A stretch of 47,634 bases of DNA, taken from contig DYPE01000007.1 in assembly GCA_020720085.1 (NCBI GenBank), positions 1-47,634 on the forward strand, given 5' to 3'. The position numbers and the translations under genes were made by a program. The notes beneath the pieces were generated by a model that saw only the letters and a program-made list of their open reading frames with translations, was not told the origin of the DNA and searched no databases. The number at the start of each line of letters is the position of its first letter. Position 1 is the first letter of the stretch. This DNA comes from Dichelobacter nodosus. GTDB lineage: Bacteria; Pseudomonadota; Gammaproteobacteria; Beggiatoales; Beggiatoaceae. Of the stretch, positions 7,217 to 40,804 are shown one piece after another.

Positions 7217-7243
7217 TAATCCTTCTTGCACAGGCAGCGACGC

Positions 7244-8563
7244 ATGAAATTATTACCCAAGTTTAATTTATCACTATCAGTAATATTTAATTATTTGATT
7301 AACTTTATATTTATTTCTGGAGTGGCGTATTTTGCCTTAACGCTGCTCTTGCTGTTGCCCGCTGCCTGGTTTCAAATCACCCCCACCCAACCCACCCCTA
7401 TCCTGCCTGCCGCTGTGCACGATGGGGTGTATATGCTGTCTGAACCGCGTAGGGTGATAGGCTTTATTTTTGCCATTGCCACCAGTGTACTCATTGCGCT
7501 TGGCTTTATAGCGCAACGTAAAATAAAAATAGAAAATGCCGATTTGTCAATTGATTATATAACCGGCCCCCACATGGGCTGGATTTTATTGCATGGCATG
7601 GCCATAGGCTGCGCATATATTTTTCAATCTTCTTCCATGTACACCGCGTTCCCTACAAGCCAACTTCCTTATGCCCTAGAAGTGATCTTCAGCGCATACC
7701 TTGGCGGTTACTCTTGTGTGTTTGGACTTCAACTTCTCAAAAAAATACCTTATGTTGCTGATCTAAAAGTTGGTATAGTTGTAATGACAATGAATAGTTT
7801 TTATTTTGCCAATAGCCTATTATTTATACTTTTTCCCACTGTCACGCCAGTGCTTAAGCAGGATTGGAATGAAACTACTATTTTATTGCAAAACATGCCA
7901 TTCTTCACACCTGCCCAGGCTTTTGTCGAAATTGCTCCACTATCTGTATTTGATCCAGCCGCTTTCTTATTGCAACATAGCGCATTTTTTACAGTAGCAT
8001 TGGTTCTTTTAATAACCGCTTTATTGCAACAGTCGCTTATACAACAACTTTCACGTTACGAACTTTTTTTGAAAAAAACAACGCGAGCAAAGGAACTCAA
8101 GAAAAAACTAATCAGCGCTGAGGAAGATGTAAAAACCATCCAAATTGAAGGTGTAACACCGAAAAGCAAGCCGCCCGAGGAAAAATTAGACCCAAAAGAG
8201 ATAGAGCGCAAAAAAGCCTATGACGAAGGATTAAAAAAAGGCATTGAAGAAGGAAAGCAAAAAGGCACCACTGAAGGCCATCGTGAAGGTTTAGTAAAAG
8301 GGCTGGAGGAGCGTTGGGATCAGGGCGTGCAACAAGGATTGCGTGAAGGATTGAGATTAGGGTTGGAAAAAGGATTCAAGCAGGGGCACGATTTGGCTAG
8401 AAAAGAAATTCTAGCGGAAATTGTAAAAAAAATGCTGGCCGAAAAAATTGATACCCGCGTCATCCACAAGATTACCGGTATTGATCCAAAGTCACAAATA
8501 AAAGAGGAAAAAACCAGCGAAGACTCCCCCACGTTACCAACAGAACGCAAGGCGGAATCTTGA
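7244..8563 (+). CDS. Multi-pass membrane protein with a long glycine-periodic, Rpn-like cytoplasmic tail
   Basis: I do not recognise the full protein. The N-terminal 265 residues contain about five to six hydrophobic segments (near 12-45, 66-90, 105-130, 165-195 and 235-262). A charged coiled coil follows (about 265-320). Then from about 320 to 385 glycine recurs every four residues in EG/KG steps. The last part (AEIVKKMLAEKIDTRVIH, then KITGI) matches the C-terminal tail of Rpn/PD-(D/E)XK transposase-like nucleases, as I remember them, but no nuclease core is present. The glycine pattern also resembles FliH. The ATG at 7244 is preferred to a TTG at 7226. Its coding bases are richer in A+T than its neighbours, which suggests transfer. 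It converges on the next gene with 12 bp between them. Confidence 0.55.
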   Translation: MKLLPKFNLSLSVIFNYLINFIFISGVAYFALTLLLLLPAAWFQITPTQPTPILPAAVHDGVYMLSEPRRVIGFIFAIATSVLIALGFIAQRKIKIENADLSIDYITGPHMGWILLHGMAIGCAYIFQSSSMYTAFPTSQLPYALEVIFSAYLGGYSCVFGLQLLKKIPYVADLKVGIVVMTMNSFYFANSLLFILFPTVTPVLKQDWNETTILLQNMPFFTPAQAFVEIAPLSVFDPAAFLLQHSAFFTVALVLLITALLQQSLIQQLSRYELFLKKTTRAKELKKKLISAEEDVKTIQIEGVTPKSKPPEEKLDPKEIERKKAYDEGLKKGIEEGKQKGTTEGHREGLVKGLEERWDQGVQQGLREGLRLGLEKGFKQGHDLARKEILAEIVKKMLAEKIDTRVIHKITGIDPKSQIKEEKTSEDSPTLPTERKAES

Positions 8564-8575
8564 TGTTATCGTTGA

Positions 8576-9949
8576 CTATTCCGGCGCAACCGCCACGCCC
8601 AGGCGGCGTAGCGCTTCGAGTGCAATGGGTTGCCAGCGCGCGGCATGGCGGATGGTGCTGGCGGGGGTTAGGTTGCGCAATTCGTTGAGGGAAAACAGGG
8701 TATTTTCATAGTTGGCCACCTGTGCCAGGCTGGGATACAAACGCAGTTGAAACGAGTGCGTGCCTTCCAGCAAGTGCGCTTCGTTGCCGTCCAGGGTGGC
8801 CAAGCGGATGTAAATGATAGAAATGTCGGTGTTGGCCAGGCTGGCGAATTCGGGCAGCGCTTCGGGCGCGAATTGGGCGCGCACAAAGCGTTCAGCCTGG
8901 CGGCTGAGCAATAGACGCGATTCTAAGATTAGCCCTTGTTGTTGTAAGCCTTCCAAAAAACGTTTGCGCGCTGGGAACATGCGTAGCAATTCCTGCTTAT
9001 TCAGGCCATGCGCCACGTCTTCAACAATGTTCAAAAATAAACGCAAATCCACTTGCGACAGCCAAGAGCGCATGGCCTGCGTGTAGTGCGGTGGCAGGCG
9101 CGCCCACCAGGTTTGGAAGCGCTTGGAAGCGCGCGGCACGCGCGGATCTTCGAGAATGGCCAAAATGGCATCGCGCCAGGTGGGTGGCGGCGGTTGGCGG
9201 GTGGCAAGAATTTTGTCCATCAACAGCCGCGCCACCGCATGGCCGAGCAAGCCACCGTCCAGCGGCAGGGTTTTGACGCTATCCCGCGCCACCATGGCCA
9301 GCAGCGGCGTTGCTTCTCCCACGGCCAGTTTGCCCAGCGGTGCCAGATAATACGCCTGCATCGTTAGGTGGAAAAATCGGCCATTTTCTGGCAACTTCAA
9401 TTCGCGCAAGTCCATGCCCTGTGCGCGTGCGGCATCCGCCGCGTGGGCCGGGCCGTGCGGATGCAACAGCCAATCATAGCGTTCGCGGTAAACCGCAGGC
9501 AGCAGCGGTGAAAGTCTAGCGGTTTGCGCCAACAGGCGGTGGAGCCAGGTTCCCAGTTCGCGCCAGGCCGGCAGCAGATCGTATTGGTCGAAATACAGGC
9601 GCAACCATTGCGCGAGCAGTAGCGCGGAAGGCGCGGGCCAGCGTTGTTGCAGGCTGCGTAGCGTGGTGGGCGTGAGCGGGGCGAGTTGTGCAAATTCGCC
9701 ACCTTCCAGCCACAGGGCGATGGCGAGGCGCACATCCGCTGGCGTGTGCAGCAATTCTGTCAGCGGTTGGCGGGCACGCAGATGCGCCAGCCAGACTTGC
9801 TTGCGCGCCAGCCCGCGCACGCCGCGCGCGCCGCGTCCGTGGCTGAATTTTGCCAATTCGCTGGCCAATTGCGCAAATACGCCCAAGTTGTCCAGCCCTG
9901 CCTGTGCGGGCAAGTTCAGGCGTAGCGGCTGTCGCAGTTCGCGCGCCAT
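8576..9949 (-). CDS. EH_signature (ZorC-like) domain protein, tentative
   Basis: This 457-aa soluble protein has an arginine- and leucine-rich helical N-terminal half. Its C-terminal half carries LEDPRVPRASKRFQTWW (about 266), WLSQVDLRLFLNIV (about 296), RKRFLEGLQQQGLI (about 328) and a final block with EAHLLEGTHSFQLRLY (about 388-403). This order recalls the EH_signature domain of ZorC in Zorya anti-phage systems, whose conserved Glu and His give the name. That match is from memory and uncertain. No ZorA/ZorB motor or ZorD helicase is nearby. The start codon lies 2 bp after the stop of the MacB-type permease, so the pair is likely translated together. Otherwise it is an uncharacterised protein. 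Confidence 0.45.
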   Translation of the reverse strand: MARELRQPLRLNLPAQAGLDNLGVFAQLASELAKFSHGRGARGVRGLARKQVWLAHLRARQPLTELLHTPADVRLAIALWLEGGEFAQLAPLTPTTLRSLQQRWPAPSALLLAQWLRLYFDQYDLLPAWRELGTWLHRLLAQTARLSPLLPAVYRERYDWLLHPHGPAHAADAARAQGMDLRELKLPENGRFFHLTMQAYYLAPLGKLAVGEATPLLAMVARDSVKTLPLDGGLLGHAVARLLMDKILATRQPPPPTWRDAILAILEDPRVPRASKRFQTWWARLPPHYTQAMRSWLSQVDLRLFLNIVEDVAHGLNKQELLRMFPARKRFLEGLQQQGLILESRLLLSRQAERFVRAQFAPEALPEFASLANTDISIIYIRLATLDGNEAHLLEGTHSFQLRLYPSLAQVANYENTLFSLNELRNLTPASTIRHAARWQPIALEALRRLGVAVAPE

Positions 9950-28432: not shown

Positions 28433-28637
28433 AAATAAAAAACATAAAGTTACCTTTGCAAATCGTGAGTTTATAACCCGCCGAGCCGTGCGCGAAGCCT
28501 ACGTTTAACCTGCCAATCGCCACACCATTGCCGCACGTCTGGATTGTCTTGAGCGCCGCTCAAAAAGAGAATACCCTACTGCGCATAAAAGATTAGGATA
28601 ATCGTTCAACCGTATGAAGTTAAGGAGAAAAACCACC

Positions 28638-31600
28638 ATGTTGTTATCACGCGCCTTACGTTATGCCGCTTTGTGCGCAAGCACATTGGCGCTTGCTGGC
28701 TTATTTATGCACACAGTACAGGCCGCGCCAGCGGGTTTGGACAGCGGATTTGCCAGCAGTGGCACATTGTCCATTGATTTTGCTGACGAGGACATAGGCC
28801 ACGCCGTCGCCATTCAGCCGGATGGCAAAATCATGTTGGCTGGCAAAGCCGGCACGGTGCCAAATGGCGATGTCGCATTGGCGCGGTTGAACTATAACGG
28901 CACGCTGGACAATACGTTTGACACGGACGGCCTAGTCACTGTGGATTTGGGAGCCACAACAGAAGTGACCTATGCCATGGCGCTGCAACCGGATGGTAAA
29001 ATCGTGGTGGCAGGCTATCAAACCAATGCGGATCAAGACTTATTGCTGGCGCGCTTCCTGTCTAACGGCGGACTGGATACCAGCTTCAATGGTACTGGCA
29101 AGGTGGTTACTAACCTCACCGGCAGTAGCGAACGCATTCAGAAGGTGGCCATTGATAAAGACGGCAATATCGTGGTGGCCGGTTATAGCAATCGCACTGG
29201 CAATGACAATTTTATTGTGGCGCGTTACACCAGTGCGGGCGTGCTGGATGCCAGCTTCGGTACGGGTGGAGTAGCAGAAACGGACTTCAGCGGCAACCGC
29301 GCCGACCGCGCGAGTGCCCTGGCCATTCTTCCGGATGGCAAAATCCTGGTCGCTGGCTATCATGACAATAGCATAAATAAGGACTTGGCTATTGCCCGTT
29401 ACCACAATAACGGCACATTAGACGCAAGCTTTGGTAGCGGCAGCGGCAAATGGATTGCAGATTTGGGCGCAGAGGAACAGGCTCTGGATTTGGCGCTGTT
29501 GCCCGATGGTCGGATATTGCTGGCTGGATATAGCAGCGACAAGATGCTGGTGGCGCGCGTGACCGCTGATGGTAGTGCGATAGACAACACCTTTGCCACC
29601 CCCAATGGCTATAAGTTAATTGATTTGAGCGTAGGCACGGACGCGGCCAACGCCATTGCAATAGACAATGGCGGCAATATCGTCCTGGCTGGCTCAGCAA
29701 ATAATACCCAAGACCTCGCCATTGCCCGGCTGCTGCCCGATGGCGGCATAGACAACAGCTTTGGCGCGAGCGGCACACAACTCTACGACTATCCCGTCGG
29801 CATAAATAGCTACTTATTTGATGTAGCCATTCAGCCCGACGGCAAAATCGTGGCTGTGGGCACGGACGGTAGCGCTGACCAAAATTTTCAAATTATCCGC
29901 GCGCTGGGCAATCCTCCCTACAACCCTGGCCATGCGCTGGATTTCGATGGTGCGAATGATTACGTCAGCGTGCCGCACCACCCCAATTTCAACTTCCCCA
30001 ATGATTTTACCCTGGAAGCATGGATTTACCCAACGCACCATGAGGGCGTAATCTTTTCCAAAGAAACCGGCGGGGCCAACGGCTTTCTACTCTATATTTC
30101 AGGCAACACGCTGTATTTCAAAAATCCTGCGGACACTACGTTTGCCAGCGATTCTGGCATCATCAACACCAACCAGTGGCATCATGTTGCGCTGACCGTA
30201 AATAGCGCCAACGGCGTGCGCTTGTATGTGGATGGCGTAGTGCGCAATGCGTCGGCCACCACCACGCCGTTGGTTACCAACAGTGATAACTTGCTGCTAG
30301 GCAATACGCTCATCACGCCACTATCCCTATTCCAAGGCAAAATGGACGAAGCGCGGGTGTGGAATGTTTACCGCACCTCCGAGCAAATTCGTGCGTCCAT
30401 GGCCAGTACCATTCCCGCACCATTGGCAGAAATGAATCTGGTGGCGTATTACCGTTTCGACCAGGGCTGGCCAGGGCTGGATAACAATCAGATCAACCGG
30501 TTGTCTGATAGCAGCGGCAAAGCCAATGGCCAACTGGATGGAATTTTATCCGGCTTTGCGCTGAACGGCGTCAACTCCAATTGGGTCGATTCCAGTGCGT
30601 TTACGGTGTGGACCGGCACAGTGGACAGCACATGGAGCAATTCCGCCAACTGGAGCGACGGCGTGCCCGGGCTGGTGAGCGCGGCGTATGTGCTCAATGC
30701 CACTAACAAACCCGTGTTTACCGGGAATGGCGTGCGCCATTTGGTGTTGGCAGACAGCAGCGACCCCAGCGGCACTACGCTCAATGTCAGCGGCAACGCT
30801 TTTGCGGGTAACGTTGGCTATACCGGTAGCGGCGAAGTGGTGCTAAGCGGCGGCACAGCGCCGCATTATGTGGCTGGGCGCTTTACCAAACTGCAACTTA
30901 ATGACAACGTGGATACCAAGCTGGCTGGCACCACAGAAATCAAAACCAAACTGATCCGCGCTGGCGCGAGCAGCCTGCAAGCCAATGGGTATACGTTGCA
31001 ATATCTCGCTGGCGGGACGCTTACCTACGCTGGTTCGATTTCGCAAACCACGGGTGACGAGTGGCCGTCCGCTGCGAGCTATACGCCAACCAGCGTGGAA
31101 ATCGCCAACAATTTCGGCGTTGACCTGTCCGGGGATCGTAGCATTGCCGGCACGCTGACCCTGACCAACGGCGCGTTGAAATTACTCGCATACCACTTGA
31201 CGCTGGGCACCGCCGCGACCGTATCCCGCGCCACGGGCTATGTCAACGCGGCCAGCGGCATCGGCGCGTTTATCAAGCAATTTGCAGATGGCAGCTACAA
31301 TCCCCCGCTATTTATTTTTCCAGTGGGCAGCAGTGGGGGCTATTCACCGCTAACCATAGACCTGGCCACCGTCAATTTGTCTTCCGCCAGTCTTAGCGTA
31401 CAGGTCAATCCCAGTAAGCATATCGGCAACCTCAGCGCAGTAGATTTTCTTAACCGCTATTGGACGGTGAGTCAATTCGGCATCAGTCCGTTTGCTGTGG
31501 AAATGCTCAGTGGGAACTATCCGGCAGGAGACGTCGCTGGCACTGAAGCCAACTTATGGGGCGGCTATTCCAACGCGGGGGTGTGGAAACCGCTGGGGCT

Positions 31601-34600
31601 GGTGAATGCGCCGTTGCACGATATAGTGATTGCTTCCGGCTTTTACGCCAATCTGCCCGCAAACTTCGATCTCAGCGCGGGCGGAGCCATAGAAATGGGC
31701 GCGACTTTTGTCAGCCAAGTCACCTCCACCACCCCGGACGGCACTTACGGCATAGGCGCGGCAGTGGACATCAGTGTGCAATTCAGCAATCCGGTAAACT
31801 ATAACTTCAGCAGCGGCACGCCCGCGCAAATTTTCCTGGAAACCGGCACAGCGGATAACACCGCCAGCTATGCCAGTGGCAACGGCAGCAATATCTTGCA
31901 TTTCAACTACACAGTGGCTGCCAACGACAATACCCCGGATTTAGAATACATTTCTTCCACTGCGCTGCAAAAAAACAACAGCACCCTCACCGACGCCGAC
32001 GGCATTCCCGCGTTGCTGGATTTGCCGCCGCCAAGTAATCCGGGGTCATTGTCAATGAATCAAGCTTTGGTCATTGATGCGCCGCCGCTGGCACCAACGG
32101 TCACGGTCACGGCTGTGCCGCCGGATACTGCACAGATTTCCTGGACTGCAACCGGCAACACCTATACGGTCAAGCGCGATGGCACGGTGTTGTACAGCGG
32201 CCTGTCGGCGCTGACGGCCAATGACGTTGGCGTGAATTTGAGTTGTGGCAACAGCTATTTATACCAAGTGATTGCCACCAATGCCTCGGGCAGCAATTCT
32301 TTGCCCGGTGCCGCAACGCTGGGCACGGCCTGCGCGCAACCACCAGCCACGCCCACCGCCAGTGCCAGCGCATTGTCGCCTTCTGCCGCGCAAATCTCTT
32401 GGAACGGCGCGGGCGACAGCTATACCCTTAGCCGAGGCGGCGTGGTGTTGGCCAGCGGCCTGACTTCGACTTCCTTCACAGACAACAGCTTGGCGTGCGG
32501 CAGCACCTACAACTATCAAGTGGTGGCGGTCAACGCCCATGGCAGTTCCGCGCCAGCCAATGCCGATGTCACCATCACCTGCCAGACCTTGACCGTGGCA
32601 GTGACCGGCAATGGCAGCGTTACGCCCGCCGGACAAACCGTTTGCCGCACGAATTGTTCGTACACCGTGCTGGCTGGGCAAAGCATGCAACTTAGCGCGC
32701 AAGCGGACAATGGCTGGAATTTCGTGGCTTGGAGCGGCGATTGTTCGGGCACGGTTTCGCCGCTCAGCGTAACCATAAACTCGCCATTGGCGTGCACGGC
32801 GTTATTCCAGTCAGGCCCAGACATTGACCAAGACAGCAGCCCAAACAGCGTGGAAGACCAGGGGCCGAACGGTGGCGATGGCAATTACGACGGTATTCCT
32901 GACCGCGACCAAAACACCGTGGTGTCGCTCAACGGCTTGTTAGGACCAGTGGTACTCAGCGTGCAGTGCGCTACCTGCTCGGTTGCCAATGTCAACATGC
33001 GCGCAGAAAGCGAGTTTGCCACCACCGGTTCTGCTGCTGACCCGGCGTTTTATCTGCCGCATGGCGCGCTGGGATTCACGCTGCGCAATGCCGCGCAAGC
33101 CACGGTAGCTATCGCTTACCACAATATCGCCAATATTCAAGACTGGACTTGGCGCAAATGGGGCGCGCCGGATTTGACCCAGCCTGGCCAGCAACGCTGG
33201 TTCGATTTTCCCGCTACGCTCCACCATGACCCAACCACCGGCATTGCTACCGCAACCTTTACCTTGACGGACAATCAGGTTGGCGACAACAATCCAGCGA
33301 TAAATGAAATCACTGACCCAGGCGGGCCAGGCTTGTCTGCGGGCGTGATTGGCTTTGACCAGCCCGAATACAGCGTGAACGAAGGCGGGAACGCCGCCGT
33401 AGGCGGGAACGCCGCCGTAGGCGGGAACGCCGCCGTAAACGGGAACACATTGACCCTACGTCTGTTGCGCAACGGCGCGGCGCATGGGCCGTTGGCCGTG
33501 AATGTGGCCTTCAGCGCGGGCAGTGCGGGAATGGGCGTTGATTTTCAGCCGCTAACTGCGCCCATGCCGTTGACCTGGAGCGATGGCGACAGCAGCGCGC
33601 GTACCGTGCAAGTGCAAATCCTTGACGACACGTTGGCCGAAAACGCGGAGGACTTTTTCGTCACGCTCTCTGGCGATGCCAGCGGCGCTACGCGGGTGGT
33701 GATTGTGGATAACGAAGCTTCGTCCACAGTGCCCATTGCCGGGAGTGGCAGCGGTGGTTGCCAGAGTTTTGCCAGCAACAGCTCCTGCGTGGGCAACGAC
33801 AGTTTGTATGAAAATTTTTCGGTGCGTCCCGACGCCGTGGTCAGCCACGTGCGCATTGACGGCGAAGTCACCAATCAAGGCTGGGTGATGGACGCTGAAA
33901 TTCTGCCCTCTGGCACGCTACAAGGCGGCCATGTTGGCGGCACAGTCGTTAGCAACGGCGTATTGCGCGACATCACGTTTGGCGGGCCATTGTTGGACGG
34001 CGGCACGCTGGCGGGTGAAATCGTGGTCTCTTACGCCGACGCGCGGCTGCGCAATATCACGCTGGCTGGCGACAGCCATTTGCGCGGCGGCATACTGGAA
34101 GGCGACATTCATTTGGCTTCGAGCAGCACGGTGGAAGACCTGCGCCTGGAGTGGGGCACGCAGCTCACTGGCGGCGTGTTGCGCGGCCTGGTGTCTGGGA
34201 TGATAAAATATGACGGTGCTTGCCTGGAGCCGCTGCCGCTGGTGGACGGTTACGCGGTGGTAGAATCCGGCGCAGAACTGCGTTGTGTGCGCCTCAGCCC
34301 CACGGTGACGTTGCGCGACGGCGTGACATTGGGCGTGGGCGTGATTGTGCCACCCGCCACGACCACTCCGGCAAGTTATGGTCTGCATCCGGCAGCGCTG
34401 TCGGGGTTGGACGCAGATACCTTGGCGCACATTGACCCGCCCGCGTTTGCCCGCCTCAGCGGCGCGGAATTGGCCACCATTCCCGCCGATGCGCTGGTGG
34501 GTATGCGCTATGCGCAATTGGCTGAACTCAGCGCAGACGCGCTGCAAGCTCTCACACCCGCGCAATTTAATGCCCTGCCCTTGGCCACGTTGGCGGGTTT

Positions 34601-35900
34601 GCATCAATACAATCTGGCCGGGCTGAACCGCGAAGTGGTGGGCCGCCTGTCTGACGCGCAAATCCAGGCGCTTCCTGCCAGCGAGGTACGCCATTTAGAG
34701 GACACCGCGTTTACCGATTTATTGCTCTATTTGCCCACACAGGCACGCCCTGTGCAGGAATGGCTGCCGCCAGGAGTCAATTTAGAGGACAGCGGCACGC
34801 TCACACTGCCGCCTGGGCGCAAATTTAGCCTGCGTCGCGTGGACGGCGAATTACCGGCCAATGTCACCCAAAGCGAACGTTATGATTTGAACACGGCGTT
34901 GGTCGTGGCCGGTGGCGGCGCTGGCATGAGTTTTCTTGACGGTGTGCGTGCGCAATTCAGCGCGGCGGGCGCTGCGGTAGATGTCCAGCAGGACGACCTG
35001 GGCCGCATTACCGTGCGCGGCGGCGCTTTCAGCCTGACGCTGATGCCGGTGTCTGGCTCGTTTGTCCAGCGCGCTGCGCCTGCGCAAGGCCAGACCTATC
35101 CGCCGCTGGAAATTAGCGAAGGCGGGCGCTGGCGGGTGAATACGGCATTCCACCAGCAATGCGAGGTGGTGCCGCTCAGTAAAAACGACGCCGAATTGCT
35201 CAGCGTGCTTGCTGCCACCACCAGCAGCGAGGTCAGCCTGGATACCGGCGTGCTGGGCGATGCCTTGCTGACCTTCACACCTCGCCAGCGGCGCGGCAAC
35301 GCGCGCGCCGTGGTGTTGTTCGACGCCACCGTGGAAGCACCGCCCGAGGGGCTATGCGTGGAAATCCAGCCTGGCGCACCGTTGCAATGCGATTTTTCCC
35401 AGCCACTCAGCGCGCCTGGCGTGTATTTCCCCCAAACCGACCGCCGCAATGCCAATACCACTACCGGCCTCGCTGGCGTAATGATCTACCCCGATGGCGC
35501 GCGCCAGCGCTTTTATCCCACCGTGCGCGACCCGCAGACGTTCATTGGCTTATTGCGGCAAATCCCGGGCGTAGAAAACGCAGTGGCCGCACTGGATGGC
35601 TCGTTCTGGGTGCAGTTTAGGGGGCAAGCATTCCGCGTGCAGCCCGATTACACGGTGCAGGAAGTGGATTGGCCAGCCAACGGTGCGCCAGCCAGCCTGG
35701 CTTTACAAGACAATCAAGTGATATACACCCTGCCGCTGGTAGAGGATAGCACAGGCAGCCGTCGCCAAGGCCGCGCCCGCAGCGCGCTACGCTTTGCCCC
35801 CAGCATAGAAGCCATGCCCGATGCGGTGTGCGTGGAGCGCGACCCAGGCAACGCTGCTAGCAGCCAAGTTGTGTGCGATTTCCAGCATCCAGCCCATTGA
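28638..35900 (+). CDS. Giant secreted multidomain surface protein
   Basis: A signal peptide (about 1-32, LALAGLFMHTVQA-A) is followed by about seven delta-60 repeats (about 35-425, e.g. ALQPDGKIVVAGYQ), a LamG/concanavalin-like domain (about 430-600, LDFDGANDYVSV), beta-rich filler, two fibronectin-III-like domains (about 1150-1310), an InlB-type repeat (GNGSVTPAG), a choice-of-anchor-U-like stretch, Calx-beta (about 1567-1690), a beta-strand ladder (about 1710-1890), helical repeats of the LTPAQFNALP type (about 1912-2027) and a C-terminal tail. It is likely an adhesin or matrix protein; no enzyme core is visible. I chose the ATG at 28638, 10 bp after AAGGAG, over one at 28614. No classic autotransporter or LPXTG anchor is seen. 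Confidence 0.75.
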   Translation: MLLSRALRYAALCASTLALAGLFMHTVQAAPAGLDSGFASSGTLSIDFADEDIGHAVAIQPDGKIMLAGKAGTVPNGDVALARLNYNGTLDNTFDTDGLVTVDLGATTEVTYAMALQPDGKIVVAGYQTNADQDLLLARFLSNGGLDTSFNGTGKVVTNLTGSSERIQKVAIDKDGNIVVAGYSNRTGNDNFIVARYTSAGVLDASFGTGGVAETDFSGNRADRASALAILPDGKILVAGYHDNSINKDLAIARYHNNGTLDASFGSGSGKWIADLGAEEQALDLALLPDGRILLAGYSSDKMLVARVTADGSAIDNTFATPNGYKLIDLSVGTDAANAIAIDNGGNIVLAGSANNTQDLAIARLLPDGGIDNSFGASGTQLYDYPVGINSYLFDVAIQPDGKIVAVGTDGSADQNFQIIRALGNPPYNPGHALDFDGANDYVSVPHHPNFNFPNDFTLEAWIYPTHHEGVIFSKETGGANGFLLYISGNTLYFKNPADTTFASDSGIINTNQWHHVALTVNSANGVRLYVDGVVRNASATTTPLVTNSDNLLLGNTLITPLSLFQGKMDEARVWNVYRTSEQIRASMASTIPAPLAEMNLVAYYRFDQGWPGLDNNQINRLSDSSGKANGQLDGILSGFALNGVNSNWVDSSAFTVWTGTVDSTWSNSANWSDGVPGLVSAAYVLNATNKPVFTGNGVRHLVLADSSDPSGTTLNVSGNAFAGNVGYTGSGEVVLSGGTAPHYVAGRFTKLQLNDNVDTKLAGTTEIKTKLIRAGASSLQANGYTLQYLAGGTLTYAGSISQTTGDEWPSAASYTPTSVEIANNFGVDLSGDRSIAGTLTLTNGALKLLAYHLTLGTAATVSRATGYVNAASGIGAFIKQFADGSYNPPLFIFPVGSSGGYSPLTIDLATVNLSSASLSVQVNPSKHIGNLSAVDFLNRYWTVSQFGISPFAVEMLSGNYPAGDVAGTEANLWGGYSNAGVWKPLGLVNAPLHDIVIASGFYANLPANFDLSAGGAIEMGATFVSQVTSTTPDGTYGIGAAVDISVQFSNPVNYNFSSGTPAQIFLETGTADNTASYASGNGSNILHFNYTVAANDNTPDLEYISSTALQKNNSTLTDADGIPALLDLPPPSNPGSLSMNQALVIDAPPLAPTVTVTAVPPDTAQISWTATGNTYTVKRDGTVLYSGLSALTANDVGVNLSCGNSYLYQVIATNASGSNSLPGAATLGTACAQPPATPTASASALSPSAAQISWNGAGDSYTLSRGGVVLASGLTSTSFTDNSLACGSTYNYQVVAVNAHGSSAPANADVTITCQTLTVAVTGNGSVTPAGQTVCRTNCSYTVLAGQSMQLSAQADNGWNFVAWSGDCSGTVSPLSVTINSPLACTALFQSGPDIDQDSSPNSVEDQGPNGGDGNYDGIPDRDQNTVVSLNGLLGPVVLSVQCATCSVANVNMRAESEFATTGSAADPAFYLPHGALGFTLRNAAQATVAIAYHNIANIQDWTWRKWGAPDLTQPGQQRWFDFPATLHHDPTTGIATATFTLTDNQVGDNNPAINEITDPGGPGLSAGVIGFDQPEYSVNEGGNAAVGGNAAVGGNAAVNGNTLTLRLLRNGAAHGPLAVNVAFSAGSAGMGVDFQPLTAPMPLTWSDGDSSARTVQVQILDDTLAENAEDFFVTLSGDASGATRVVIVDNEASSTVPIAGSGSGGCQSFASNSSCVGNDSLYENFSVRPDAVVSHVRIDGEVTNQGWVMDAEILPSGTLQGGHVGGTVVSNGVLRDITFGGPLLDGGTLAGEIVVSYADARLRNITLAGDSHLRGGILEGDIHLASSSTVEDLRLEWGTQLTGGVLRGLVSGMIKYDGACLEPLPLVDGYAVVESGAELRCVRLSPTVTLRDGVTLGVGVIVPPATTTPASYGLHPAALSGLDADTLAHIDPPAFARLSGAELATIPADALVGMRYAQLAELSADALQALTPAQFNALPLATLAGLHQYNLAGLNREVVGRLSDAQIQALPASEVRHLEDTAFTDLLLYLPTQARPVQEWLPPGVNLEDSGTLTLPPGRKFSLRRVDGELPANVTQSERYDLNTALVVAGGGAGMSFLDGVRAQFSAAGAAVDVQQDDLGRITVRGGAFSLTLMPVSGSFVQRAAPAQGQTYPPLEISEGGRWRVNTAFHQQCEVVPLSKNDAELLSVLAATTSSEVSLDTGVLGDALLTFTPRQRRGNARAVVLFDATVEAPPEGLCVEIQPGAPLQCDFSQPLSAPGVYFPQTDRRNANTTTGLAGVMIYPDGARQRFYPTVRDPQTFIGLLRQIPGVENAVAALDGSFWVQFRGQAFRVQPDYTVQEVDWPANGAPASLALQDNQVIYTLPLVEDSTGSRRQGRARSALRFAPSIEAMPDAVCVERDPGNAASSQVVCDFQHPAH
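33384..33437 (+). repeat. Three tandem 18-bp repeats within the giant gene
   Basis: The unit GGCGGGAACGCCGCCGTA occurs three times exactly, encoding GGNAAV repeats inserted in the Calx-beta domain just after YSVNE. The frame is kept. Exact identity points to recent slippage, so copy number may vary between strains. Confidence 0.9.
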
Positions 35901-36323: not shown

Positions 36324-39300
36324 TTACGGTGTGGCATGGGTGACTCCAGGCGTTTGTGCTTCTAAAGACTCAGACAGGTCTGGGCAAATTTTGTGATAAT
36401 TGGCGTCGTTGCCAGCAAAAGTTTGCCATTCTTGTACAGTCAAGTTGCGGTTGGCCAGGCGGCAGGCGGTGCGAATCCAGAAGTCTGCGTCTAGGTTCCA
36501 TACCAGAATGCGGAATATCGTAGTCCCGCCTGCGCTGGCAAGATATTTTTGGTTTGCGCTAAACGATAAGGCGCGCACTGCGTCGCCATGGCCGCGTATG
36601 GGTTGGCTCATGGCAGAGAAGTCTGTGCCATTGATTTGCCAAAGGATAATGGTTTTATCGTCGCTGCCTGAAGCCAGCACCAGCGAGCCATCCGTGGTGG
36701 GCATGGCAGCGAGGCTGTACACCCAATCGGTATGCCCAAGCAGGGGTTCGCCAACCGGTTGCATGGTGTGCGTGTCCCACAGCACTATCGAGCGGTCATC
36801 CGCCGCGCTGATGACGTGGCGGCCATCGGGCGTAAAAATTAAGTCATTCACCCAGTCGCGGTGGCCGCTGAGGCGTTCGCCCTGGGTTTTACCTTGCGCG
36901 AGGTGCCATAAAAAAATGCCGCCATCGCGGTCGCAACTGGCGAGTTGTGCGCCGTCAGCGCCGTTACTGACTGGGCTGAATTTCACCCGCCGCACCCAGT
37001 GGCTATGGCCTTGCAATTCAGTCACCGGTTGTGATGGGTCAGTGGCATTCCATAAATATACTACCCCGGCGCGCCCACCAGCGGCAATCCACTGGCCGTC
37101 TGGGCTGATGTCTATGGTATTTAAGGCATCGCCACGTCCGCTAAATTGCGCTAACTCTTTGTTTTTTTGCCAGTCCCACATGCGTACATGGCCATCCTGA
37201 CCCGCGCCGAGTAGCCGTTGGCCATCGCGGCTGAACACCAGTTGCGCAATCGCTGTGCCGTGTTCTAACCGCGTTGGGGTAGGTTTGGCTGTATCCAACG
37301 GCCATAGCAATACTGCTGCGTCATCGCCCGCGCTGGCCAGCAGGTTGCGGTGCGGGTGAAATACTACGCTTTCTACTTCTTTGTTATGCCCTTCCAGCGC
37401 GAATGCGGTAGCCGGTGTAGATTGCAGACTCCATAACGCGGCATGGCCTTCTTCATCCAGGCTAATGAGGTGGTCTTGCGTGGGGGTGAACATGGTTTCC
37501 ACCACGGTGTGGGCATGGCCGCGCAAGGGGCCTGCCACACTGTATCCGCCAGCCACGTCCCATACCATCATGGTTTTGTCGGCAGAGGCGCTGAGCAGAT
37601 AACGGCTATCGCGGCTAAAGCTGAGTTTATTTACCCACTGTGTGTGGCCGCGCAAGACATGAATGGTTTGCAGGGTTGCCTTATCTAAGATAAAAATTTC
37701 CTGCACATCGCCTGCCATGGCCAGGCGAGTGCCGTCCGGGCTGGTTACCACTGCGTTTACGCCAGGCTGATAGGCGGTAGGTTTGGCCTGCAAAGATTGC
37801 AAAAGCACTTGCTGGGTTTGTCGCTGTTCGTGCAAATCCCAAATCCGCATCGAGCCATCTGCGCTGGCGCTTAAAACTTCAGCCGGATTGATTGGATTGG
37901 CATCCAGTTCATAAATTTCGCCACTGTGGCCGCTGAGCGTATGCTGTTTTTGTAGGGATTGGCGGTCGCGCAAATGAATTTCGCCGTCATATCCTGCTGT
38001 TATCAGCCATTGGCCATCCACACTAAATACCATGTCGCCAATGGTGCGTCTATGCGCCACAATGGGCGCGCCACTGGGCTGAAATGTGGCCATGTCCCAC
38101 GCCTGAATGGTGCCATTGATGTCGCCGCTTAACAAACGGCGGCCATCGGGCGTGAAGCATAGTGTGCTGATTTGCGCGGCATTGCGTAACCGGCGCGGCG
38201 ACAGTTGATATGCGGTATGCTCTGCGTTGGTGGGCATGAGAAAGCGAATTTCCTGGCCAGCCGTAATTGCCAGCAGGTTTTTGTCCGGGCTGTAATCCAT
38301 GTCATAGGCCATTTGATTGAGATGCGCTAAATAATGATGCAAATAGCGTTGTTCTGACAGCACATAGCCCAAATTGGCCGCTGCGTTGTGGTTGGCGGTG
38401 TTCATCTCAAATGCCAGGGCGGCAAGCAATAGCGCTTGGTCGCTGCCGCCATTGATGGGGCTGGGCGCTTGCGTGCCGAGTAAGGATTGGGTGGCCAAAT
38501 GTTGGGTATGAAAAGCGCGGGCGTTGTGCTCCGCACGCTGGCGGTTGTTTTGCGCATCAAAGAACAGGGCAATGGCAACGATTAGCGCAATCACTGAAAT
38601 CACCAGCAAGCTGTGCAGCAGCACGCGGATGCGCCATTCCATGCGCTTGCGCGCAGCGACCGCGTGTGCGCTTGCGGTGATAAATTTGCGATGCAGCTCT
38701 GCGGGCGCAGGTTGCTTGCGCTGTTGATCCGCTACGTCCAGCCAGGCGTGCGCCATGGCCAACTCATTGCCGCGCAATAATAAATCTACACTGTAGCCAT
38801 CGTCCGCCCATGCCTGGGCGCGCAAGCCCCAGCGCGTATGATGCTCAACATGCTCGCGGTCCGTGTCCAGCGTTCTGATCAGTTCACTAAATCCTTTATA
38901 AAAGTCGTCGCTTGTGCGGGTAAAATCAATCCATTGCGTGCCGCGCAACGGTGCCGGCACATCCTCCACTGGCGCACGCAATAGCGGAATTACGCGCTTA
39001 TTGCGTTGGATGGCATCCTCCATTACGGCGCGGCATTGCGTTGAAGCCAAAGATTGCGGGGAAACTACAAATAAAAAGTTATGGCTGGCAGCAATGCCGC
39101 GACGCATTTCTTCTGGCGTTTCCCGTACCAGCCAATCGGCGGATTCTTGGTCAAACCAGGCGGATTTTCCCTGCGTTTCCAACAAGCCATGCAAACGGCG
39201 GGCAAAGTCGCGGTCTGCGCTGGCATAGGCCAAAAAGATTTCTCTCGCAGCATCGCGCGGTTGCGCCAAGCTTTGCTCAATATATTCTATGTGCAAAGGC

Positions 39301-40472
39301 AAGGGCGGATGTTTTTGATGCATCGGTGCACCCTTGAGCCAGGCTTCCGCTGCCGTGAGTCGGCGGCCATGTAACAGCACGCTGGCATTGTGGTTTTGTG
39401 ACTGCCATTTCAGCGCGTTTACCAGCAATTCCTTGTGCTGGCGGTAGTACGAAGCTTCGCTGTACAGCGCGCGCAATAATTTGTCTAAACCGTCGGCGGC
39501 GTTAGTGTCCTCGACTGCTTCGCGCCAATCTAAAACCAGTGCGTTCTTTATGTCTGTCGCCTGTCCGCTGCCTAAATTCAACAGGATGATGCGCTTGGAT
39601 AAGCGCTGAGCATATTCCAATTCCGCACGGCACAATACCATCGCGCTGCTGGCAGGGGAAGCCAGAAAGATTACATTGTCAGCTTTCTCAATGCCGCGCT
39701 GAAGCTCTTCTCTGAGGGTGTCCGCGCTGGTGCGCGCCTGCAATTCCTCGTGCCAAACCGTAATGCCTTCGTGCTGTAGCCGTGCGCACAGGCGTTGCAA
39801 CCATTCGCCATCGCTTTTTGCGTAGCTGATAAAAGCCCATGACATATCATTAAATGCGCTTTTAGTGCTTTCACAAATAAACTCTGCGTGTAACGCTGTG
39901 ACCAGGCAAGGTGGCTGGCGTTGGCCATCGCTAAAGCGCGTTTGCAACCAGGCTTCCGCGTGCTCACGCGCATCGTCTGTAAGCAAATATTCCGCTTTTC
40001 GCTGGTTGTGTGCCCAGGCCAATGCTTGGTTTAAAATGAACGTGTGCAGCTCCACATATTCGGCTTCTTGTTGCAGCGTAGCCAACAACCGGGAAAACGC
40101 TTCTTCATACGGTTGGCTGCCATCAAAATAAAGCCAATTGAGCCGTTGAATCGTTGGATGAAGATGAACCTCACTTTCCCCTAATGCCACATGGTATAAA
40201 GGAATAATGCGTTTGCCATGCCGCACAGCATGTTCGATTTCCAGGCGGCAATAGGGGGAACGCGCCGAATGCGGCGCAATAATAAAAATAAAGTTGCGCG
40301 CCCGTTCAATGCCATCGTCAATCTGCTTTTGATAATCCACCGAGGGTGGAATATCTTTTTGATCAAACCAAATGCTTAACCCTTGCGCAAGCAATTGAGC
40401 ATGGAGTTCCATGGCGAATGCCCGGCTTTCCTTGCGTCCGTAGGAAATAAATAGGTCAAATAGGCTTTTCAT
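36324..40472 (-). CDS. Triple TIR, transmembrane, WD40-repeat protein
   Basis: The 1382-aa protein has three TIR domains (about 5-135, 211-340 and 410-540), each followed by a helical linker of the form H..L..A..W....LL.G..L..A.AWL. One transmembrane helix lies at about 615-638, and about 14 WD40 repeats fill about 710-1350, enough for two 7-blade propellers. TIR domains are often NAD-cleaving or scaffold modules in defence; the catalytic glutamate sits after a CR pair. It is present in TIR1 (CRLE, Glu78) and TIR2 (CRAE, Glu284), but TIR3 reads CRAV (Val483). The ATG at 40472 follows GGAAA; the longer frame to 40586 has no similarity. I infer a membrane-anchored sensor-effector. No NTPase switch domain is seen and no partner gene is adjacent. 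Confidence 0.88.
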   Translation of the reverse strand: MKSLFDLFISYGRKESRAFAMELHAQLLAQGLSIWFDQKDIPPSVDYQKQIDDGIERARNFIFIIAPHSARSPYCRLEIEHAVRHGKRIIPLYHVALGESEVHLHPTIQRLNWLYFDGSQPYEEAFSRLLATLQQEAEYVELHTFILNQALAWAHNQRKAEYLLTDDAREHAEAWLQTRFSDGQRQPPCLVTALHAEFICESTKSAFNDMSWAFISYAKSDGEWLQRLCARLQHEGITVWHEELQARTSADTLREELQRGIEKADNVIFLASPASSAMVLCRAELEYAQRLSKRIILLNLGSGQATDIKNALVLDWREAVEDTNAADGLDKLLRALYSEASYYRQHKELLVNALKWQSQNHNASVLLHGRRLTAAEAWLKGAPMHQKHPPLPLHIEYIEQSLAQPRDAAREIFLAYASADRDFARRLHGLLETQGKSAWFDQESADWLVRETPEEMRRGIAASHNFLFVVSPQSLASTQCRAVMEDAIQRNKRVIPLLRAPVEDVPAPLRGTQWIDFTRTSDDFYKGFSELIRTLDTDREHVEHHTRWGLRAQAWADDGYSVDLLLRGNELAMAHAWLDVADQQRKQPAPAELHRKFITASAHAVAARKRMEWRIRVLLHSLLVISVIALIVAIALFFDAQNNRQRAEHNARAFHTQHLATQSLLGTQAPSPINGGSDQALLLAALAFEMNTANHNAAANLGYVLSEQRYLHHYLAHLNQMAYDMDYSPDKNLLAITAGQEIRFLMPTNAEHTAYQLSPRRLRNAAQISTLCFTPDGRRLLSGDINGTIQAWDMATFQPSGAPIVAHRRTIGDMVFSVDGQWLITAGYDGEIHLRDRQSLQKQHTLSGHSGEIYELDANPINPAEVLSASADGSMRIWDLHEQRQTQQVLLQSLQAKPTAYQPGVNAVVTSPDGTRLAMAGDVQEIFILDKATLQTIHVLRGHTQWVNKLSFSRDSRYLLSASADKTMMVWDVAGGYSVAGPLRGHAHTVVETMFTPTQDHLISLDEEGHAALWSLQSTPATAFALEGHNKEVESVVFHPHRNLLASAGDDAAVLLWPLDTAKPTPTRLEHGTAIAQLVFSRDGQRLLGAGQDGHVRMWDWQKNKELAQFSGRGDALNTIDISPDGQWIAAGGRAGVVYLWNATDPSQPVTELQGHSHWVRRVKFSPVSNGADGAQLASCDRDGGIFLWHLAQGKTQGERLSGHRDWVNDLIFTPDGRHVISAADDRSIVLWDTHTMQPVGEPLLGHTDWVYSLAAMPTTDGSLVLASGSDDKTIILWQINGTDFSAMSQPIRGHGDAVRALSFSANQKYLASAGGTTIFRILVWNLDADFWIRTACRLANRNLTVQEWQTFAGNDANYHKICPDLSESLEAQTPGVTHATP

Positions 40473-40804
40473 CGTAGGTTTCCAACACGCTGTGTTCAGT
40501 GGCCAAGGCGTGGCACGCGGCTTGTGGTTCACAAACAACCACCCCTGTAAGCATTTACACGCGCGAACTGTGCATAAAAAATCCATCTGGGCAAGAGTAT
40601 ACCGGACGCAGCAGAATTACGTCCATAAAACCGCCTCTCCACGCACCAATGGGTTCATAGGGCAACAGCCACTGATTGGCACGCAGAAAATTTGACCGCA
40701 CGCACCAGCAACCTCTTTCTTTTTTGCCAAAAAGCGATTATTATAAAAAATAAGTTTTTCACAAAACCAAACCCAAACAAAACATAATCAGGAGAGTATA
40801 GATA
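40473..40804. other. Divergent intergenic region between the TIR-WD40 and H-NS-family genes
   Basis: It is AT-rich toward the H-NS-family gene (40720-40800), with an AGGAGA ribosome binding site at 40792-40797. No gene is seen. It presumably holds both promoters, but I could not pick convincing boxes. Confidence 0.4.

Follow-up and report, generated by a model that had tools for sequence, protein, structure and literature searches.

A predicted orphan membrane protein of Dichelobacter nodosus with a C-terminal tail akin to the RpnS domain of Rpn nucleases

Architecture of the protein

The forward-strand gene at 7244..8563 of a 47,634-nucleotide stretch of Dichelobacter nodosus DNA (contig DYPE01000007.1 of assembly GCA_020720085.1; the window) encodes a predicted membrane protein of 439 amino acids whose tail is akin to the C-terminal (RpnS) domain of Rpn nucleases. 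This architecture, and the relationship of the tail to the Rpn C-terminus, are shown by sequence comparison together with structural modeling. The explanation that we favor, with a probability of about 0.6, is that an orphan protein with about six helices in the inner membrane carries an RpnS-type dimerization domain at its cytoplasmic C-terminus, and that its likeliest role is to assemble the membrane protein into homodimers. The absence of the defining PD-(D/E)XK core means that the protein is not an Rpn nuclease.

The membrane part comprises residues 17-268 (7292..8047, + strand). Kyte-Doolittle hydropathy gives four membrane helices at a threshold of at least 1.6, five at 1.5, and seven at 1.2, and the AF2 model contains long helices at residues 9-42, 68-92, 104-129, 141-167, 171-196, and 238-299, with confidence low in parts. 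The full-length model has a pTM of 0.31, and confidence is mixed in the membrane part because no homolog could be aligned there. Inside loops 1 to 3 carry 2, 3, and 2 Lys plus Arg residues, and the outside loops carry 1, 0, and 1, counts that rest on helix borders of our choosing. The best reading of these data is a six-helix topology with the N- and C-terminus both in the cytoplasm. The last AF2 helix of the series runs on into a charged extension and linker (residues 269-316; 8048..8191, +), of which residues ∼300-316 form a poorly ordered end, with low pLDDT at 304-307.

No family could be assigned to the N-terminal region. Residues 1-285 found no match up to E 10 in Pfam, PHROGs, or PADLOC, and in NCBIfam just a CcmD-like fragment at E 2.1; a nuclease core was matched by none of these four collections, and positions 1-223 of the Rpn model TIGR01784 were left unmatched. 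The earlier note's reading that membrane helices stand in place of the nuclease is supported. A full-length fold search returned nothing usable (best E 1.2). There were no relatives of the N-terminal part among 42 genomes of the same bacterial family, which also made up the whole of the order sample, and among 369 genomes of the class and 398 of the phylum there were only two matches, in G363 (E 7.7e-4) and G540 (E 1.6e-3), which we took as chance because both cross stop codons. Exact-peptide scans of the genome contig collection (164 stretches) and of viral contigs (57 and 95 stretches), the reach of which is close relatives only, detected no relative. The membrane part was unmatched in the plasmid collection, and in the phage collection the repeat described below was matched alone. 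By these sequence searches the membrane part is an orphan.

The next gene in the window (8576-9949, − strand) encodes a ZorC-like protein (EH_Signature PF15611, E 8.6e-40; PADLOC ZorC, E 1.3e-85), and for this reason a ZorA identity was considered for the membrane protein. No MotA/ExbB membrane domain or PADLOC ZorA match was detected in it up to E 10, and no ZorA, ZorB, or ZorD was found in the subset of window proteins scanned with PADLOC (this gene, 4, and 10). The ZorC-like gene is present in 4 of the 42 family genomes, the source genome included, and its three relatives (L190-L192) appear to lie outside Zorya operons, beside apparent housekeeping genes as judged from flanks read by eye. 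With no ZorA, ZorB, or ZorD among the scanned proteins and no link seen between the ZorC-like gene and the membrane gene, a Zorya system was rejected. Elsewhere the window encodes a protein of 1420 residues in which three TIR_2 stretches precede WD40 propellers (36324-40586, −) and one of 2428 residues that contains the domains DUF5122, Laminin_G_3, and Calx-beta (28614-35900, +).

Sequence and fold of the tail

The tail starts with a long helix (residues 317-399; 8192..8440, +), followed in the AF2 model by two short ones at 404-411 and 415-426, all with pLDDT mostly near 90. Fourteen four-residue units (residues 329-384; 8228..8395, +) lie within the long helix, 13 of them beginning with Gly, at positions 329, 333 and onward to 353 and again from 361 to 381, all in a single phase of four, with Arg in slot 357. 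The repeat segment has 11 Gly-to-Gly steps of four, a number reached by none of 100,000 shuffles (maximum 8), and the whole protein has 13 such steps, against a maximum of 8 in 20,000 shuffles. This confirms the glycines at every fourth residue pointed out in the earlier note. A DNA-level search pattern for runs of GxxxG was not specific enough for its matches to be listed.

TIGR01784, the curated Rpn model, aligns its positions 224-266 (of 273) with residues 368-414, giving E 0.0064 and 16.3 bits on the whole protein and E 1.1e-4 and 22.1 bits on the tail alone, far below the curated cut-off of 52.1 bits. The length and composition of the tail make every single sequence score weak, and two Rpn-tail profiles were compared with shuffled tails. 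Profile 1, independent of this gene, was built from 32 Rpn tails that TIGR01784 had picked out in the family genomes and the source genome; it scores residues 383-425 at 16.2 bits versus a best of 15.4 in 20,000 tail shuffles, a small margin obtained with three rows (L054-L056) misplaced. Forty-three ORFs had been picked for it, of which 11 were removed on inspection as the wrong ORF or as having a DUF4351-type tail. Profile 2, consisting of 36 tails with GxxxG repeats and using only the columns past the repeat, scores residues 382-439 at 17.0 bits, which was reached by 0 of 50,000 shuffles (a score was returned for 43,297 of them, with a maximum of 12.3). When profile 2 was run over the 348 ORFs of the window, the gene ranked first with 12.7 bits and the next ORF scored 1.3. 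Both profiles indicate that the sequence motif that follows the repeat in Rpn tails is present here. A 37-row tail profile, A2, in which the query is 1 of the rows, finds the RpnA-S structure (PDB 7th0) at E 3.1e-7; the A2 and profile 2 results are not fully independent, since many rows were found with the query's own tail. In the plasmid collection, 44 of 72,556 records match the tail, with weak E values (0.01 to 8). Seventeen of these matches extend past the repeat, and they comprise 16 annotated Rpn proteins and one unannotated protein; the other 27 end at the repeat, with FliH genes among them. Residues 385-425 on their own have no match in Pfam or NCBIfam.

Residues 368-428 were modeled separately (mean pLDDT 77), and the model was compared with known structures. 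Foldseek ranks 7th0 first, with an rmsd of 0.6 over 35 columns and an E of 3.0 that by itself is not significant. VIA-align also places 7th0 first, at Z 5.7 and 1.8 Å over 46 of 46 residues (375-420; 8366..8503, +), ahead of a second entry at Z 3.6; the tool's own note describes a Z under 13 as middling for helices. The tail model thus has the three-helix fold of 7th0, at a modest Z that is 2.1 above the next entry and covers the whole chain, and the four-residue units fall in its first, long helix, which is a feature of RpnS. The AF2 tail models were built from alignments containing Rpn tails. Modest alone, the helical fold match becomes persuasive when combined with the sequence tests, and profiles and models agree with the earlier note that the tail resembles the end of Rpn proteins.

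The opposing explanation is that the tail is an independently reached FliH-like or Yae1-like GxxxG helix unrelated to Rpn. The earlier note had set a better alignment with FliH against Rpn kinship, and in raw scores FliH does align better: the NCBIfam FliH models reach E 1.5e-9 on the tail versus 1.1e-4 for TIGR01784, although the best FliH score is 31 versus a cut-off of 180. Yae1_N (PF09811) scores 20.6 on the whole protein and 29.7 on the tail alone, where it passes its cut-off of 27.5, by matching the GX3 run only. Long GxxxG runs of FliH have been proposed to pair helices (PMC2674601). However, of the 37 tails in the comparison set, which is otherwise Rpn-type, 36 are also matched by the FliH models; these models are therefore non-discriminating and carry no weight against Rpn. 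The repeat alone draws the FliH match, and no FliH C-terminal domain was found after it, whereas the post-repeat residues score with the Rpn profiles and draw no FliH match, and RpnA-S is the first structural match of both Foldseek and VIA-align. FliH kinship was rejected on these grounds, and we consider an origin of the tail unrelated to Rpn very improbable.

A fusion seen once and its origin

Is the fusion found elsewhere? A set of 158 loci gave 111 ORFs that contain five or more polar GxxxG units, of which 66 have short tails, 42 have DUF4351-like tails, and 3 are of other kinds; this gene is the only one of the 111 with at least two hydrophobic segments of ≥1.6. By eye, at least seven of the 66 short-tail ORFs are not Rpn-like (L006, L014 twice, L067, L082, L100, L131), and the membrane-fusion count is independent of them. 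One ORF, L095, has one hydrophobic segment, which on inspection lies ahead of the true Rpn start. A search of the 398-genome phylum sample gave 48 matches, four of them in the source genome, and the 44 further loci contained no second multi-helix fusion. Because the loci were gathered from several searches, this is a survey and not a census. The gene is absent from 29 other MidA loci within ∼1.5 kb per side, some of them cut by contig ends, and these loci revealed no clean empty site; a literature search did not find a membrane fusion of RpnS. The earlier note's suggestion of looking for the same fusion elsewhere thus yielded no further case, an outcome that the note had named as one half of what would refute its reading. 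The domain is known and its arrangement here is new; with a single example, the gene counts as a lead rather than a family. Among the loci collected, L002 (positions 952-2268), L033, and L036 encode putative secreted proteins that combine ∼20 to 30 copies of a four-residue SRGL or SRGV unit with a C-terminal region similar among them; such proteins occur in several of the family's genomes.

A recent accidental fusion or an assembly chimera, in which an Rpn end lies behind a membrane gene without selected function, would account for the failure of the searches to find either a second example or an ortholog. The ORF starts with an ATG at 7244, its stop codon ends at 8563, and an in-frame TTG at 7226 is an alternative start that would add six residues; upstream bases read by eye show no obvious Shine-Dalgarno sequence before either start, which suits an accident, and a scan for promoter and terminator around the gene gave results near chance level. 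The G+C content of the gene (0.413, compared with 0.529 for the window) is the lowest of 25 larger window genes, again as such an event might leave it. Against this, the two halves of the gene have similar G+C contents (0.401 and 0.434), the 439-codon frame is intact, and 13 of 14 glycines are kept while the 12-base units of the repeat differ in sequence, a pattern that suggests age and constraint over a fresh copy. The source genome is 87% complete, and the best relatives of its MnmA (58-67% identity in 80 loci) indicate that the bacterium is probably a gammaproteobacterium. The favored reading has against it that one instance without an ortholog offers no measure of selection or conservation. 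On balance we regard an accident as improbable. Under the favored reading of a dimerizing membrane protein, the gene probably arose by the joining of an unrelated membrane gene to a sequence coding for an RpnS end, of which the bacterial family has many. Rpn matches at E ≤ 0.001 occur in 42 of the 42 family genomes, above the cut-off in 39, and are very numerous in G006, G037, G005, and G030, with 48, 39, 34, and 34, respectively; in the source genome, seven Rpn genes exceed the cut-off.

Candidate roles and comparison with known systems

The name RpnS denotes the C-terminal domain of Rpn as produced separately from within the gene, and RpnA-S is a dimer of three-helix bundles that pair by the first helix, in which RpnS domains have four-residue insertions (PMC10327210). 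By analogy with RpnA-S, two copies of the membrane protein would pair along the GxxxG helix, this pairing would hold two membrane domains together, and compatibility between partners would depend on how many units each has. The earlier note had spoken of an oligomerization module reused at the membrane. The module itself is in keeping with the dimerization domain of RpnA-S (PMC10327210), and the reuse is represented by a single instance. As a natural fusion of an inhibitor-type domain to a membrane protein, the gene would mark the domain as a portable pairing module.

A release of the tail as a free product is unlikely because the usual internal start is absent. No in-frame ATG, GTG, or TTG occurs from residue 277 to 361, and two TTG codons inside the repeat, at residues 370 and 374, are accompanied by weak SD-like bases; an internal start with a ribosome site in the style of RpnS was not found in this gene.

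Alternatively, the tail could bind in trans to an Rpn with a matching tail and retain that Rpn, perhaps in an inhibited state, at the inner membrane until some disturbance releases it. RpnS is reported to inhibit full-length Rpn through direct binding and also to occur as separate genes (PMC10327210), and loop charges predict the tail to be on the cytoplasmic side. The seven Rpn genes above the cut-off in the source genome also speak for this reading. Yet for RpnC the block is reported to be abolished by one extra unit on one side (PMC10327210), and the eight resident Rpn tails examined, from a genome 87% complete, have 3 to 8 in-phase glycines versus 13 here; therefore none is an obvious partner. 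There is also no Rpn gene among the tested neighbors. We judge such a tether rather unlikely, though the most credible of the alternatives to homodimer assembly. A more elaborate version, which we offer as speculation and consider doubtful, is a membrane-anchored RpnS acting as an inner-membrane sensor that would pair with Rpn via matched repeats, silence it, and free it upon membrane disturbance, for example by phage. The paper that defined RpnS names the release of Rpn nucleases from their inhibitor as a key unresolved issue (PMC10327210). If the sensor reading were true, this would be a toxin-antitoxin pair whose antitoxin is a membrane protein, and the fusion suggests a possible link of membrane state to Rpn control.

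Among known systems, FliH shares the polar GxxxG run, which in our gene lacks a following FliH C-terminal domain. To our knowledge, FliH has no membrane part. Rpn-like proteins of the same bacterial family with longer tails also share the C-terminal GxxxG helix; these tails bear an FGxLP motif and are presumably DUF4351, whereas the present gene has a short TG-type tail. The domain name DUF4351 is that used in PMC10327210. Rpn nucleases (TIGR01784/COG5464) share model positions 224-266 at the C-terminus and differ by the PD-(D/E)XK core (positions 1-223), which is missing here, and the Rpn tails examined in the source genome have fewer four-residue units than this gene. The closest counterpart is RpnS, as seen in RpnA-S (7th0), with the same long first helix of four-residue units followed by two short helices; here, however, the domain lies behind a membrane part and is without a separate start codon of the RpnS kind.
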